Assembly: GCA_017435525.1 (NCBI GenBank)
Contig: JAFSEW010000050.1
Coordinates: 1 to 47,504 of the forward strand
DNA from: Oscillospiraceae bacterium
GTDB taxonomy: Bacteria; Bacillota; Clostridia; Oscillospirales; Oscillospiraceae
Length of the DNA: 47,504 bases
Direction: 5' to 3'
Shown here: positions 1 to 31,805 of the stretch, piece after piece
Numbering within the stretch: position 1 is the stretch's first letter
How the letters are laid out: the number at the start of each line of letters is the position of its first letter
The notes under the pieces: generated by a model
The model's input: the letters and a program-made list of their open reading frames with translations, nothing else
Told to the model about the DNA's origin: nothing
Database searches by the model: none
Program-made: the position numbers and the translations under genes

Positions 1-915
1 CATCAGCCCGTTCTGATCCACGCCGGTCCCTTTGCTAACATTGCTATCGGCCAGTCCTCCGTTATCGCTGACCGCCTGGCTCTGAAGCTGTTCGACTACC
101 ATGTCACCGAGTCCGGCTTCGCTGCTGACATCGGCTTCGAGAAGTTCTGGAACGTTAAGACCCGTCTGTCCGGCCTGACCCCCAACGTTTCCGTTCTGGT
201 TGCTACCGTCCGCTCCCTGAAGATGCACGGCGGCGGCCCCAAGGTTACCCCCGGCGCTCCCCTGCCCAAGGAGTACAAGGAAGAGAACCTGGAACTGCTG
301 GAGAAGGGTACCTGCAACCTGTTCCACCATGTTAACACCATCAAGAAGTCCGGCATCACTCCCGTTGTGTGCATCAACCGTTTCTTCACCGATACCGACG
401 CTGAAGTCGCTCTGCTGAAGAAGCTGTGTGCTGAGCGCGGCATCCGTTGCGCCGAAAGTAACCACTGGCGTTACGGCGGCGAAGGCGCTGCTGAGCTGGC
501 TCAGGTCGTTGTCGAGGCCTGCGAGACCAAGAACGAAGTTAAGTTCCTGTACGATCTGGATATGCCTCTGCGTCAGCGCGTTGAGCTGATCGCCAAGGAA
601 GTCTACGGTGCTGACGGCGTTATCTGGCAGCCCCTGGCTACCGAGAAGGCTGAGCGCTTCGAGAAGGATCCCAAGTACGCCGACTACTGCACCATGATGG
701 TTAAGACCCACCTGTCCCTGTCCGATGATCCCACCAAGAAGGGTGTGCCCACCGGCTGGAAGCTGACCATCCGCGACATTCTGGAGTACGGCGGTGCCAA
801 GTTCCTGTGCCCCATGGCAGGCACCATCTCCATGATGCCCGGTACTGCTGCTAACCCCGCATACCGCCGCGTGGACGTGGACACCGAGACCGGCAAGGTC
901 AGTGGCCTGTTCTAA
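1..915 (+). CDS. fhs: Formate--tetrahydrofolate ligase, 3' part (5' end outside window)
   Basis: ATP-dependent ligation of formate to tetrahydrofolate, giving 10-formyl-THF, in the cytoplasm. The reading frame is open from base 1 and ends at TAA 913-915, giving 304 residues. The family is about 555 residues, so roughly the N-terminal 45 percent, including the P-loop, lies upstream of the window. Diagnostic stretches seen are [14 protein letters not shown] at the very start, [17 protein letters not shown] near residue 37, and [14 protein letters not shown] near 68. A strong terminator follows directly, so fchA is at least partly a separate unit. fchA and folD downstream supply the next two folate interconversions. 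Confidence 0.95.
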
Positions 916-1069: not shown

Positions 1070-1690
1070 ATGGATATGACAATGGAATCCTGCCGCAAGT
1101 TTGTGGAAGTTCTGGCCTCCGATTCTCCCACCCCCGGTGGCGGCGGCGCTGCTGCTCTGGTTGGCGCTCTGGGTACCGCTCTGGGCAACATGGTCGGCTC
1201 TCTGACCGTGGGCAAGAAGAAGTACGCCGAAGTGGAAGCTGAGATCATTGCTCTGAAGGCTAAGTGCGATGCTCTGCAGAAGGAACTGCTGGATCAGGTC
1301 GAGGCTGACGAAGTTGGCTTCCTGCCTCTGGCTAAGGCCTACGGCATCCCCAAGGACGATCCCAACCGCGATAAGGTCATGACCGAAGCTACCATCATTG
1401 CCTGCTCCACCCCCATGCACATCATGGAGCTGTGCTGCGAGGCTATCGAAGCCATCGCTGTGTTTGCCGCCAAGGGCAGCCGTCTGGCTGTTTCCGATGC
1501 CGGCTGCGGCGCTGTTTGCTGCAAGGCTGCTCTGCAGGCTGCTTCCCTGAACGTCTTCATCAACACCAAGAGCCTGAAGGATCGCGCTGTTGCTGAGGAA
1601 ATGAACGCCAAGTGCCTGGGCATGCTGGACAAGTACTGCGCCATGGCTGACGAGATCTTCAACACTGTCAAGGCCGGCTTCGGCGTCTAA
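1070..1690 (+). CDS. fchA: Methenyltetrahydrofolate cyclohydrolase
   Basis: Interconverts 5,10-methenyl-THF and 10-formyl-THF in the cytoplasm. The 206-residue all-helical protein belongs to the formiminotransferase-cyclodeaminase (FTCD_C) family and has the usual length for FchA of purine- and amino-acid-fermenting clostridia. The N-terminal SPTPGGGGAAALVGALG glycine-rich loop (residues about 19-35) is the family signature. The ATG at 1070 follows GAAAGGA. It sits between fhs and folD, so the three genes cover formate to methylene-THF. Its presence matters because the neighbouring FolD lacks the lysine needed for cyclohydrolase activity. Confidence 0.92.
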   Translation: MDMTMESCRKFVEVLASDSPTPGGGGAAALVGALGTALGNMVGSLTVGKKKYAEVEAEIIALKAKCDALQKELLDQVEADEVGFLPLAKAYGIPKDDPNRDKVMTEATIIACSTPMHIMELCCEAIEAIAVFAAKGSRLAVSDAGCGAVCCKAALQAASLNVFINTKSLKDRAVAEEMNAKCLGMLDKYCAMADEIFNTVKAGFGV

Positions 1691-1809: not shown

Positions 1810-2682
1810 ATGGCTAAGAGATTACTGGGTAAGGAAGTTAACGAGGCTCTGGTTGCCGCTCTGCAGACCCGTGCCGCTGCTCTGAAGGAGAAGGGTGTTA
1901 CCCCCACTCTGGCAATTCTGCGTCTGGGCGAGAACCCCTCCGACCTGAGCTATGAGAAGGGCGCCACCAAGCGCGCTGAAGAAATCGGCGTTGCCATCAA
2001 GAACTTCATTCTGCCCGAAGCTTCCACCAAGGAAGAAGTCCTGGCTGTTATCGACCAGATCAACGCTGACGACTCCATCCACGGCTGCCTGATGTTCCGT
2101 CCTCTGCCCAAGCACCTGAAGGCTGACCAGGACGAGATCTGCAACCGTCTGGCTCCCAAGAAGGACGTTGACTCCATGACCCATATGTCCAACGCCGGCG
2201 TGTTCGAAGGCCAGGACCTGGGCTACGCTCCCTGCACTCCCGCTGCCTGCATGGAGATCCTGGATCACTACGGCATCGACTGCAAGGGCAAGAAGGCTGT
2301 GGTTATCGGCCGCTCTCTGGTTGTGGGCAAGCCCGCTGCCATGATGCTGATGGCTAAGAACGCTACCATCACCATCTGCCACACCCGTACCGTTGATCCC
2401 GCCGCTATCTGCCGCGAAGCTGACATCATCATCTCCGCTGCCGGTGTTCTGAACAGCCTTACCAAGGACTTCGTCCGCGAAGGCCAGGTCGTTATCGATG
2501 TTTCCATGAACTGGAACCCCGAGAAGATCACCTCCAAGGGCAAGGGCGGCATGTCCGGCGACGCCATCTTCGACGAGGTTGAGCCCATTGTCGAGGCCAT
2601 CACCCCCGTTCCCGGCGGCGTGGGCGCTGTTACCACCTCCGTGCTGATGAAGCACGTTGTGGAGGCTGCTGAGAAGGCCTAA
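1810..2682 (+). CDS. folD: Methylenetetrahydrofolate dehydrogenase (FolD family, probably dehydrogenase only)
   Basis: Oxidises or reduces between methylene-THF and methenyl-THF. The protein has 290 residues. The ATG at 1810 follows AAGGAG at 1795-1800; the frame is open further upstream but without a ribosome site. The N-terminal substrate domain has Tyr48 of the family YxxxK motif, but the position of the catalytic lysine (Y+4) is Ala52, and the glutamine of the VQLPLP motif is Phe96. The KDVDS stretch (residues about 118-122) is kept. The Rossmann half has VVIGRSLVVGKPAAMML and ends in TPVPGGVGAVTTSVL. In characterised FolD enzymes that lysine is needed for cyclohydrolase, so this copy probably relies on FchA for that step. 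Downstream is a ZTP-like riboswitch. Confidence 0.93.
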   Translation: MAKRLLGKEVNEALVAALQTRAAALKEKGVTPTLAILRLGENPSDLSYEKGATKRAEEIGVAIKNFILPEASTKEEVLAVIDQINADDSIHGCLMFRPLPKHLKADQDEICNRLAPKKDVDSMTHMSNAGVFEGQDLGYAPCTPAACMEILDHYGIDCKGKKAVVIGRSLVVGKPAAMMLMAKNATITICHTRTVDPAAICREADIIISAAGVLNSLTKDFVREGQVVIDVSMNWNPEKITSKGKGGMSGDAIFDEVEPIVEAITPVPGGVGAVTTSVLMKHVVEAAEKA

Positions 2683-2696
2683 TCCCATATCCCCTT

Positions 2697-2765
2697 CTGT
2701 ATGACTGACAGGTAAGGCGGGTCACCGCCGGGGAGTACAGAAGTGCAAATGCCGACTGTCTGGGC
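2697..2765 (+). promoter_or_regulatory. ZTP/ZMP riboswitch aptamer (pfl motif)
   Basis: P1: CTGTA 2697-2701 pairs with TACAG 2736-2740. P2: GGCGG 2716-2720 with CCGCC 2725-2729, loop GTCA. P2 is followed by GGGGAG 2730-2735. The 3' conserved piece is GCCGACTGTCTGGGC 2751-2765, matching the CCGCCTGGGC-like core of ZTP riboswitches. The terminator stem starts inside this GGGC, the arrangement expected for ligand-controlled antitermination. The ligand class senses ZMP/ZTP, which builds up when 10-formyl-THF is short. This matches the folate genes just upstream. The call rests on pattern recognition by eye, not on a covariance model. Confidence 0.75.
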
Positions 2766-2800
2766 GATCCGATTCTCCATAGGATCGGATCGCCCTTTTT
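2762..2800 (+). terminator. Riboswitch expression-platform terminator
   Basis: A perfect 12-bp stem (2762-2773 with 2784-2795) is followed by TTTTT 2796-2800. The 5' arm begins with the GGGC of the conserved 3' element of the ZTP aptamer, so ligand binding and terminator formation are mutually exclusive. Confidence 0.88.
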
Positions 2801-2827
2801 CTACAAATTATCTTCGAGGTGTCTGTT

Positions 2828-4171
2828 ATGAATAAGATCAAAAACCTCTCTGAAGGCGCTTTTCTGAAGCTGCTGTTCGGTTTCTTCTCCGTCTGTTTCC
2901 TGGTTGCGGCTTTCTGTATGCCTGACCGGAGCACCATGTTCACCGGCCTGTGGCACATCATCAGCCAGCCCAGCAAGATCTCTGCCAACTATTTCGCCAT
3001 GGGCGGCTACGCTGCCACCTTCCTGAACATGGGTCTTGTGGGCCTGCTGTGCCTTGGACTGTTTGTGGTGTTTAAGGGCACGCCCAACAACGCCTCCACC
3101 CTGGCTGTGCTGCTGACCATAGGCTTCTGCTCCTGGGGCATCAATGTGCTGAATATGTGGTTCTCTGTTCTGGGCGTAGTGGTCTACGGCCTGGTGAAGA
3201 AGGAAAAGATGGGCGGCCTGGTAAACGCCATGCTGTTCTCCACCGGTATTGCTCCGCTGATCACCGAGCTGCTGGTCCGCTATCCCAGCGCCGAGTACAT
3301 CGGCTTCAATGTTCCCGGAGCGCTGATAGCGCTGTTCGTTGGCCTGATTATCGGCTTCTTCCTGCCTGCGGGTCTTGCCCACTCTCCTAAGGTTCACAAG
3401 GGCTTTGACCTTTACAGCGCAGCTCTGCCCATCGGTATGACTGCCTTCTTCCTCAACGCCACCCTCTACAAGACCCTGGGCGTCAGCCTGCCCAAGGCGC
3501 TGTCTGATCTGGCTCCCGAGAGCATGCAGGTTGCTTCCCAGTCCACTGTCAACATCTTCTGCATTGCTGTGTTCGGCCTGTGCATCGTATTCGCATTCCT
3601 GCTGGGCTGCAAGCCCAAGGATTACTGGAAGCTGCTCACCGATCCCGCACTGGTCAGCAACTTCTCCTCCACCTACGGCAACGCCACCTTCCTGATGAAT
3701 GTGGGTGTGTTCGGCCTGTTCATCCTGGGTTACTACAACCTGATCGGAGCCAACTTCAACGGCATTACCTTCGGTATCATCTTCTGCATGCTGGCTACCT
3801 GTAATTCCGGCAGCCATCCCGGCAATGTGTGGCCCATTATGCTGGGCTACTTCGTGGCCTCCGTGGTAGCCGGCTGGCTCTCCACCCTGGTGGGCGGCAA
3901 CTTCACCCTGGCTATCAATGCCCAGGCTATCTGCGTGGGTCTGTGCTACGCCAACGGTCTGAGCCCCATTGCCGATAAGTACGGCTGGCAGTACGGTTTC
4001 ATCGCCGCTGTGATGCACTACCTGCTGGTGACCTCCGTGCCTACCCTCCACGGCGGCTTCTGCCTGTACAACGGCGGCTTCACCGCAGCGCTGATCTGCC
4101 TGATCCTGGTGCCCGAACTGGAAAAGTTCTTCCGCACCAAGGAAGAGCGGAAGCTGGCAAAGGCTAAGTAA
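2828..4171 (+). CDS. DUF1576 polytopic membrane protein, possible transporter
   Basis: 447 residues with about ten hydrophobic segments, matching what I recall of the DUF1576 family, whose function is unknown. The family is described as two related halves. Here FAMGGYAATFLNMGLVGLL (about 55-73) and the later SSTYGNATFLMNVGVFGLF (about 276-294) look like the repeated motif. ATG 2828 follows GAGGTG; a GTG at 2819 is an in-frame alternative. It lies behind a ZTP-type riboswitch with terminator and downstream of fhs-fchA-folD. That suggests import of something that relieves folate or purine shortage, but the substrate is not known. Confidence 0.8.
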   Translation: MNKIKNLSEGAFLKLLFGFFSVCFLVAAFCMPDRSTMFTGLWHIISQPSKISANYFAMGGYAATFLNMGLVGLLCLGLFVVFKGTPNNASTLAVLLTIGFCSWGINVLNMWFSVLGVVVYGLVKKEKMGGLVNAMLFSTGIAPLITELLVRYPSAEYIGFNVPGALIALFVGLIIGFFLPAGLAHSPKVHKGFDLYSAALPIGMTAFFLNATLYKTLGVSLPKALSDLAPESMQVASQSTVNIFCIAVFGLCIVFAFLLGCKPKDYWKLLTDPALVSNFSSTYGNATFLMNVGVFGLFILGYYNLIGANFNGITFGIIFCMLATCNSGSHPGNVWPIMLGYFVASVVAGWLSTLVGGNFTLAINAQAICVGLCYANGLSPIADKYGWQYGFIAAVMHYLLVTSVPTLHGGFCLYNGGFTAALICLILVPELEKFFRTKEERKLAKAK

Positions 4172-4177
4172 TGCTTT

Positions 4178-4202
4178 GTAGGGGAGGGTCTTGACCCTCC
4201 CG
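4178..4202 (+). repeat. REP-like unit 1
   Basis: GTAG, then a GC hairpin GGGAGGGTC/GACCCTCCC with a short TT loop, 7 bases after the DUF1576 stop codon. It is the same unit as at 44356-44380 and, inverted, 44458-44482. Confidence 0.75.
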
Positions 4203-4203
4203 C

Positions 4204-4235
4204 AAAAGGCGTGTTGCATTTGCAACACGCCTTTT
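4204..4235 (+). terminator. Terminator after the DUF1576 gene
   Basis: A perfect 15-bp stem (4204-4218 with 4221-4235) ends in TTTT on the plus strand. Confidence 0.85.
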
Positions 4236-4243
4236 CCTATACG

Positions 4244-4276
4244 CAAAAACCGGGCAACCCTTGCGGGTTGCCCGGT
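4244..4276 (-). terminator. Terminator after pta
   Basis: A perfect 12-bp stem (4249-4260 with 4265-4276), loop 4261-4264. On the minus strand it is followed by TTTTT (complement of 4244-4248). Confidence 0.88.
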
Positions 4277-4290
4277 CTGTTTGGAAAGAA

Positions 4291-5289
4291 TTACACCATT
4301 GCAGCGGTGATGATAGCCATCTTGTAGACTTCCTCGGCGTTGCAGCCACGGGACAGGTCGTTGATGGGAGCAGCCAGACCCTGCAGGATGGGGCCCAGAG
4401 CTTCATAACCGCCCAGACGCTGTGCGATCTTGTAGCCGATGTTACCAGCCTCGATGGTGGGGAAGATGAAGGTGTTGGCGTAGCCGGCAACGGGGGAGCC
4501 GGGGAACTTCAGCTGGCCGACTTCGGGAGCCACAGCTGCGTCGAACTGCATTTCGCCGTCGATAGCCAGGTCGGGAGCCATTTCCTTGGCAACCTTGGTA
4601 GCCTCGTTGGACAGCTTCACAGTGCCGCCCTTGCCGGAACCGTTGGTGGAGAAGCTCAGCATAGCAACCTTGGGGTCAATGCCGAAGACCTTAGCGGTGT
4701 TAGCGGTCTCGATAGCAACCTCAGCCAGCTTCTGTGCAGCGGACAGAACCACATTGCCGTCCTTGTCCACGGAATCCTCGTAACCCAGGTTGATAGCGCA
4801 GTCGCCCATAGCCAGCTTCTCTTCGCCGCGAACCATGATGAAGCAGGAAGAAACCAGGTGAGAGCCCTTCTTGGTCTTGACGATCTGCAGAGCGGGACGG
4901 ACGGTATCAGCGGTGGAGTAGGTAGCGCCGCCCAGCAGGGAGTCAGCATAGCCCATCTTCACCAGCATGGTGCCGAAGTAGTTGCCCTTGGAAAGGGCAG
5001 CCTTGCACTCCTCAGCGCTCATCTTGCCCTTACGCAGCTCAACCATCTTGGCGACCATCTCGTCCATGCCTTCATAAGTAGCGGGGTCCAGAATCTCAAC
5101 GCCTTCGATGTTGAAGCCGCCCTTGGCAGCGTTGGCCTTGACTTCTTCCACATTGCCCACCAGGATGGGGGTCAGGAAGCCGCCTTCCACCAGGCGAGCG
5201 GCAGCTTCCAGGATACGGGCGTCATGGCCTTCGGTGAAGACGATCTTGCGGGGATTGGCCTTCAAAGTTTCAATCATTGCGTTAAACAT
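4291..5289 (-). CDS. pta: Phosphate acetyltransferase
   Basis: Exchanges acetyl-CoA and acetyl phosphate in the cytoplasm, the step before ATP formation by acetate kinase. The 332-residue protein is the normal length of the short Pta family. Diagnostic segments are TEGHDARILEAA (residues about 19-30), GGATYSTADTVRPALQI (about 119-135) and, near the end, GPILQGLAAPINDLSRGC, which favours Pta over phosphate butyryltransferase. ATG at 5289 has GGAGGA upstream. It is a single-gene unit with its own promoter and terminator; ackA is not adjacent. It fits conversion of fermentation acetyl-CoA to acetate. Confidence 0.95.
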   Translation of the reverse strand: MFNAMIETLKANPRKIVFTEGHDARILEAAARLVEGGFLTPILVGNVEEVKANAAKGGFNIEGVEILDPATYEGMDEMVAKMVELRKGKMSAEECKAALSKGNYFGTMLVKMGYADSLLGGATYSTADTVRPALQIVKTKKGSHLVSSCFIMVRGEEKLAMGDCAINLGYEDSVDKDGNVVLSAAQKLAEVAIETANTAKVFGIDPKVAMLSFSTNGSGKGGTVKLSNEATKVAKEMAPDLAIDGEMQFDAAVAPEVGQLKFPGSPVAGYANTFIFPTIEAGNIGYKIAQRLGGYEALGPILQGLAAPINDLSRGCNAEEVYKMAIITAAMV

Positions 5290-31615: not shown

Positions 31616-31631
31616 CATCCTGGTACGGTTA

Positions 31632-31805
31632 CCCATGATAGCACTCCACTTTCGTGACAGTCCGGCACATGTTCTGTGACGGCCCAGGATCAGCATCCGG
31701 GCAGATACTTTCCTTCGGCGAAGCTCCCCTTTCTTTTCCTCCGGCCTGCCCGGCCATGGGAGGGAAGTACTGATGGGCTCCGCGCCTCTACCATTGAGAC
31801 TTCTA
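31632..31805 (-). promoter_or_regulatory. Lysine riboswitch (L-box) aptamer
   Basis: Read on the minus strand: GGTAGAGGCGCGGAG (31778-31792), ATCAGTAC, GGGGAGCTTCGCCGAAGG (31712-31729), GGATGCTGATCCTGGGCC (around 31683-31700), then ACTGTCAC (31654-31661) and the closing strand GTGGAGTGCTATC. Order and core sequence match the five-helix L-box. Together with the terminator it should switch off the importer when lysine is plentiful. Confidence 0.88.

Follow-up and report, generated by a model that had tools for sequence, protein, structure and literature searches.

The window, by which we mean the whole 47,504-nucleotide stretch of DNA analysed here (from an Oscillospiraceae bacterium whose genome is 77% complete), opens with the one-carbon genes fhs, fchA and folD, followed on the same strand by a riboswitch, its terminator and the gene of a membrane protein of the family DUF1576. 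The initial annotation had placed a ZTP-type riboswitch behind these three genes and before a DUF1576 membrane protein; Pfam confirms all three upstream genes, fhs being partial, and identifies the controlled gene through PF07613, which matches in two domain copies with 228.5 bits against a gathering threshold of 25. The features, with strand, are the following.

1..915, +: fhs, formate–tetrahydrofolate ligase, C-terminal 304 aa, cut by the contig start (PF01268, 388.4 bits)
1070..1690, +: fchA, methenyl-THF cyclohydrolase (PF04961, 202.6 bits)
1810..2682, +: folD, methylene-THF dehydrogenase/cyclohydrolase (PF00763, PF02882)
2691..2772, +: ZTP (pfl) riboswitch aptamer (RF01750, 57.5 bits; our own model R1, whose training set includes the window itself, 83.7 bits)
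2694-2702 with 2735-2743, +: P1, enclosing P2 (RF01750 match; covariation)
2707-2711 with 2756-2760, +: pseudoknot GACAG/CUGUC (99.5% of cells paired)
2717-2720 with 2725-2728, +: P2 (RF01750 match; covariation)
2730-2735, +: GGGGAG element (read in the sequence)
2750-2753 with 2763-2766 (span 2750..2766), +: P3 with CTGGGC (RF01750 match)
2762..2800, +: intrinsic terminator of 15 pairs, loop CCAT, TTTTT tail (folding, hairpin scan)
2816..2819, +: probable ribosome-binding site GAGG (sequence)
2828..4171, +: DUF1576 polytopic membrane protein, 447 aa, proposed to serve formate uptake (PF07613; AlphaFold2 model)

The folD stop codon ends at 2682, which leaves 11 nt before the first P1 pair at 2694. 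For the DUF1576 gene, the ATG at 2828, lying behind the GAGG at 2816-2819, is a likelier start than the GTG at 2819, and the gene on its other side is a convergent pta. The fchA product scores 177.7 bits with NF045657, below the curated cut-off of 275. The same genome has a second ZTP match before homologues of purE and purC, and the window also carries a lysine riboswitch (RF00168, 84.4 bits) at 31631-31798 on the minus strand.

The aptamer and its overlapping terminator

The Rfam covariance model RF01750 (ZMP-ZTP) matches 2691-2772 on the plus strand over its full length (model positions 1-86 of 86), with 57.5 bits against a gathering threshold of 39 and an E value of 7.7e-07 in a search of the whole window, so the score is not low. 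P1, P2, the GGGGAG element, the pseudoknot and the P3 core can each be assigned base by base, with a 3′ core of the form GCCGA...CTGGGC, and all the elements that had earlier been folded by hand (P1, P2, GGGGAG and the CTGGGC core) are located in the sequence. The pseudoknot reads GACAG/CUGUC in the window, GACGG/CCGUC being the commoner form among relatives; one pair changes from G-C to A-U in two of 42 distinct rows, those of the window and of locus L077. These rows belong to an alignment of 44 matches, including three purE switches and L068, which was fitted to P1, P2 and P3 with the pseudoknot outside the fit. Over the 26 named pairs, 88.2% of the cells are paired, two-sided changes occur in 90 cells where shuffles average 26.3, and they affect 13 pairs where shuffles give 9.4; slid controls all fall below the true pairing, and P3 shows no two-sided change within these 44 rows. 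Folding energy of the aptamer alone was dropped as support, since its z score against shuffles is −0.29 and 72 of 200 shuffles fold equally well; the evidence for the aptamer thus consists of the covariance model and the covariation. Taken together, we regard it as virtually certain that the element is a ZTP-class riboswitch.

The hairpin behind it had been described as a 12-bp terminator overlapping the 3′ core; the overlap stands, and the length is to be corrected to 15 pairs, which span 2762-2795 and are followed by TTTTT. On its own this hairpin folds far better than its shuffles (z −6.17). The GGGC of the core, which is the 3′ strand of P3, also forms part of the hairpin's 5′ arm, and P3 and the terminator are therefore mutually exclusive. 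A single fixed rule finds a T-tailed hairpin starting in the GGGC in 38 of 43 cases (42 loci and the window).

All tests applied here place the riboswitch among the ordinary members of its ON-type class, and its ligand response would be that of the class. The ZTP (pfl) switches, for example that of Clostridium beijerinckii pfl, have P1, P2, P3, a pseudoknot and a terminator that competes with P3, as does the window; they are ON switches, in which the terminator displaces both P3 and the pseudoknot in the absence of ligand and is kept from doing so when ligand is bound (PMC10085676). ZTP itself is described as a signal of 10-formyl-THF shortage (PMC7266159). When 10-formyl-THF runs short, ZMP/ZTP would thus accumulate and bind the aptamer, the pseudoknot and P3 would be held and the 15-pair terminator blocked, and RNA polymerase would transcribe through into the DUF1576 gene, a single membrane-protein gene being gated in this way. 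A simple scan of 2300-4300 finds no sigma-70-like site, and the switch may therefore act as an attenuator inside an operon transcript; this transcriptional ON riboswitch behind folD probably lies inside the fhs-fchA-folD transcription unit, from which the read-through would come. Compared with the usual targets of the class, which according to PMC2864571 are purine and formyl-THF genes, the target in the window is an uncharacterised membrane protein, and the aptamer lies directly behind the folD of fhs-fchA-folD.

Pairing of the switch with DUF1576 genes in one clade

A scan of genome contigs with the window protein gave 78 loci with DUF1576 proteins 56–86% identical to it, whose titles name, for example, Oscillospiraceae or Clostridia bacteria from gut metagenomes. 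In a quick tree of 131 rows, built without L147, these 78 loci, the window and L176 (80 rows) cluster together with an SH-aLRT support of 100. The survey of DUF1576 genes for ZTP switches that the initial annotation had called for finds that 41 of the 78 loci have an aptamer no more than 500 nt upstream, with a further one at 1200 nt (L068). These counts come from R1, which was built from seven sequences and recovers the window and five of the 78 loci by construction; Rfam's own model serves as an independent check, and its gathering scan of 16 of the 78 loci places an aptamer upstream of DUF1576 in six. On the scale of whole genomes, we searched 40 clade genomes, the window's own and 39 hand-picked from those behind the 78 loci. 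The Rfam model yields 72 ZTP matches in 37 of them, and 25 of the 72 lie within 500 nt upstream of DUF1576 (the window and 24 loci, among them L008 and L048, which share a genome, and L005, whose 38.3 bits are under gathering); about a third of the ZTP switches in these genomes therefore serve DUF1576.

Counting switches, C1 genes and formate dehydrogenase (FDH)-type genes together, 75 of the 78 loci are tied to a ZTP switch, to fhs, fchA or folD, or to FDH-type genes, in these arrangements.

13 of 78 loci: folD within 600 nt, then switch, then DUF1576
7 of 78: switch with C1 genes farther upstream
7 of 78: switch with divergent purE
14 of 78: switch without such neighbours in view
29 of 78: behind C1 genes, with the nearest 500 nt free of a switch; in 22, folD is at most 200 nt away
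2 of 78: C1 genes in another arrangement (L028, L073)
3 of 78: FDH-type genes near (L030, L074, L082)
3 of 78: no link (L024, L031 and L078, with 187, 409 and 809 nt of upstream DNA)

The distribution of the switch implies more than one gain or loss. Its presence requires 18 changes over 77 rows of the quick tree (L024, L031 and L176 left aside) against a shuffled mean of 25.6, a rough figure, given that 33 of the 127 inner branches, a quarter, are weak.

Several further arrangements were seen at clade loci. Behind folD in L081, positions 3900-4000 hold a 3′ core and terminator without P1 and P2, a probable remnant of a ZTP switch. Two ZTP matches stand back to back, one facing purE and the other DUF1576, in L029, L032, L035, L036, L037, L072 and L079. 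A single genome contributes both L008 and L048, each of these DUF1576 genes having its own ZTP switch, and L049 has a tandem DUF1576 pair (464-1789 and 1906-3444) behind an fhs match. In L014, L017, L034, L039 and L048, the switch and DUF1576 are preceded on the same strand by a gene of the Na+/H+ exchanger family (PF00999). Finally, the FTHFS RNA motif RF02981, perhaps another sensor for the fhs operon, is found upstream of an fhs match in four of 31 clade loci scanned (L012:468-582, L027:157-274, L052:484-599 and L061:508-626), none of which has a ZTP switch at DUF1576.

Formate genes around DUF1576, and FNT genes in the same slots in relatives

Fhs converts formate to 10-formyl-THF, and other formate genes recur beside DUF1576. 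In L073, L074 and L082, of which the first two are nearly alike, FDH-type genes lie upstream of DUF1576 together with homologues of NuoE and NuoF; in L030, a protein of the FdhD-MobA type adjoins it. The N-terminal part of FdhA in the former three is 57–58% identical to its counterpart in L151, whose DUF1576 protein (36% identical) is among the nearest kin outside the clade and has the gene of a formate dehydrogenase alpha subunit some 240 nt upstream of its own. That subunit matches TIGR01591 in three pieces, each singly under the cut-off, and contains an in-frame TGA at the selenocysteine position of such enzymes. In L180, another near relative outside the clade, a pyruvate formate-lyase gene (TIGR01255; 1092 bits, above the cut-off of 994) precedes DUF1576 by about 2.4 kb, and the interval contains a tRNA and a weak radical SAM match. 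No formate gene was found in the stretches viewed for the near kin L177-L179.

In relatives, members of the FNT family (FocA and kin, PF01226) are found in these same slots, either following fhs-fchA(-folD) or downstream of a ZTP switch. One genome (G528, locus L204) has the order fhs-fchA-folD-FNT, and one of the window's own family that has no DUF1576 match (G502, L202) has fhs-fchA-FNT. In G623 (L193), a ZTP match with a hairpin of the same kind stands 93 nt before an FNT match. Five loci (L194-L198) have a ZTP switch followed by purE and purC, the FNT match coming 3.7–3.8 kb after the switch; an AIR synthase gene intervenes in L196, and a formyl transferase gene follows in L194. In these five, the FNT-type gene is short and sits within the ZTP-led run that opens with purE-purC. 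The proteins of L193, L194 and L196 fall below the curated NCBIfam cut-offs for fnt and focA; they are assigned to FNT by Pfam and are not proven FocA. The four FNT proteins scanned have 203–269 aa, compared with 447 aa and two domain copies for the DUF1576 protein. With 63 of 65 FNT places and PFL places down to an E value of 3e-149 taken into the count, the switch stands no more than 1.3 kb before a PFL-like gene in at least 57 of the 148 matches listed for the order, and before FNT genes in six pairs.

The gene content of whole genomes was compared between the 40 clade genomes, which are hand-picked, near kin and by their titles mostly metagenome assemblies, and a sample of 197 genomes of the order. 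FNT matches are found in 64 of the 197 and in none of the 40; PFL-like matches in 147 of the 197 and in six of the 40, leaving 34 clade genomes without. Within the order, FNT is more frequent in genomes lacking PFL (27 of 50) than in those that have it (37 of 147), a pattern that would follow if imported formate took the place of formate made in the cell, whereas none of the 34 clade genomes without PFL has FNT. Fisher tests give 4e-4 within the order and 2e-8 and 2e-12 for the clade comparisons, values that exaggerate the contrast, since the genomes are related and the two samples were assembled in different ways. Individual genomes qualify the pattern. One of the window's genus (G542) has fhs-fchA-folD-DUF1576 plus a PFL-like gene, and one of its family (G615) has no match for DUF1576, PFL or FNT, so that absence of PFL and FNT need not demand DUF1576. 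Ten of the 24 order genomes with any DUF1576 match, among them G528, also have FNT.

The link to one-carbon genes has a clear outer boundary. DUF1576 occurs in 40 of 398 genomes of the phylum, 36 of them with paired strong domain matches and four with short or weak ones. Four of these 40 phylum genomes have a riboswitch match in a whole-genome search, and in the window's genome only does the switch lie near DUF1576 on the same contig. None of the 36 distant loci (22–36% identical, stretches of 3.7–15 kb) has fhs, fchA, folD, purE or purC above 50 bits, the fhs query being the C-terminal part, and an association with C1 genes throughout the DUF1576 family is therefore rejected. The commonest Pfam family in neighbouring ORFs of these loci is HATPase_c (14 of the 107 scanned, from 135). 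An ORF of about 111–118 aa lies close behind several distant DUF1576 genes (L126:7958-8299, L127:4642-4983, L137:6598-6951 and others), and in three of eight such small ORFs scanned HATPase_c is above the cut-off. A HATPase-type protein was rejected as a partner, since it adjoins several distant members and not the window gene. In three kin (L123, L145 and L149), DUF1576 lies behind a gene with PYC_OADA and HMGL-like domains. The formate reading is accordingly limited to the clade and perhaps its nearest kin, rather than to the whole DUF1576 family.

What the DUF1576 protein may transport

An AlphaFold2 model built with 79 clade sequences is mostly helical (pLDDT 89.3, pTM 0.90). Against Pfam at E ≤ 0.001, the window protein matches PF07613 alone, with neither PF01226 nor PF03253. 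Foldseek finds no match at E ≤ 0.001 in the PDB or in a viral fold library. Among the best 50 of 449 matches the FNT fold is absent, and the most probable are urea transporters: 3k3g with a probability of 0.90 (TM 0.34/0.42, E 0.14) and 8xdh with 0.57. The model thus shows a weak fold likeness to urea transporters (PF03253), and sequence likeness was not seen; profile comparison by hhalign with a thin alignment of three such sequences gives a probability of 0.1, and homology to these transporters was set aside as a weak lead. The single match of a PDB sequence search (E 0.59) was taken as chance.

The initial annotation had offered a purine, a folate or a one-carbon source as candidate imports of the protein. 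The one-carbon suggestion is supported, with a context that points to formate; purine or folate neighbours are unseen except for purE in seven loci. Three kinds of evidence lead us to favour formate: the fhs, fdh and pfl neighbours; the absence of FNT, and in most cases of PFL, from the clade genomes searched; and the FNT genes in shared slots. To these is added that the same switch class precedes the formate producer pfl in the order. On this genomic context, the DUF1576 protein of the window's clade probably imports formate for use by Fhs, standing in for PFL and FNT. The mechanism above would then close as a loop, in which the protein brings formate (or formic acid) in from outside, Fhs converts it to 10-formyl-THF, and purine synthesis resumes.

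Four alternatives have to be weighed against this reading. First, DUF1576 may import a purine, nucleoside or folate, easing the same shortage further down. This would also be a sensible target for a ZTP switch, and each of the seven loci with divergent purE has a ZTP match; but the recurring neighbours are fhs-fchA-folD and FDH-type genes rather than genes for purine or folate uptake (neighbours were named in part, so that a farther salvage gene could be missed), and relatives put FNT genes in the same slots. We consider it unlikely. Second, and slightly less probable again, the substrate could be a different small carboxylate, or an amino acid, from which one-carbon units derive (glycine, serine or glyoxylate, for example). 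FolD offers an established alternative route to 10-formyl-THF from serine-derived methylene-THF and is encoded in the same operon, and the DUF1576 genes of L123, L145 and L149 lie behind a carboxylase-type gene; formate, on the other hand, is the common denominator of fhs, fdh and pfl. Third, export of formate (with Fhs reversed) or of a Z-nucleotide product such as the riboside is improbable. FDH and PFL neighbours are compatible with either direction of transport, and a switch that senses Z-nucleotides could drive their removal, but discarding formate fits poorly with a gene that would be switched ON when 10-formyl-THF is short, and the absence of a PFL-like gene from 34 of the 40 clade genomes also speaks against export. 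Finally, it is very improbable indeed that the riboswitch is real but paired with DUF1576 by chance or by hitch-hiking on folD: although 22 of the 78 loci have DUF1576 within 200 nt behind folD without a switch, 21 of the 41 switch loci have no folD upstream on the same strand within the up to 4 kb examined (404 nt in L058, for example), so that the switch goes with DUF1576; switches number about 1.8 per genome in the 40 genomes, which likewise speaks against chance.

Formate uptake by the clade protein is thus the reading that we carry forward. The broader proposal has, in our judgement, about an even chance of holding: the DUF1576 clade would be a new family for formate uptake, unrelated to FNT and replacing both PFL and FNT, by which purines would be made from the formate of neighbours with the ZTP switch as sensor of demand. 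Many relatives of the window bacterium come from animal guts, and a paucity or absence of formate dehydrogenase genes in gut acetogens is interpreted as adaptation to formate-rich habitats (PMC10103890). The literature searched, which leaves most subscription journals outside its coverage, contains no mention of DUF1576 or PF07613. Kim et al. (2015) is reportedly the paper that validated the ZTP class, and the pairing with DUF1576 could appear there. The novelty lies in the target: within a single clade, the switch is repeatedly paired with a DUF1576 gene, the surroundings of which are consistent with uptake of formate.

For a protein family without known function, these findings provide a sharp and testable hypothesis. 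If it is true, bacteria would have another, unrelated solution to formate uptake, and one riboswitch class would serve a single need through three kinds of target: the making of formate by pfl, its uptake by FNT proteins and, probably, its uptake by another protein. It would furthermore show how uncultured gut bacteria live on the formate of others.
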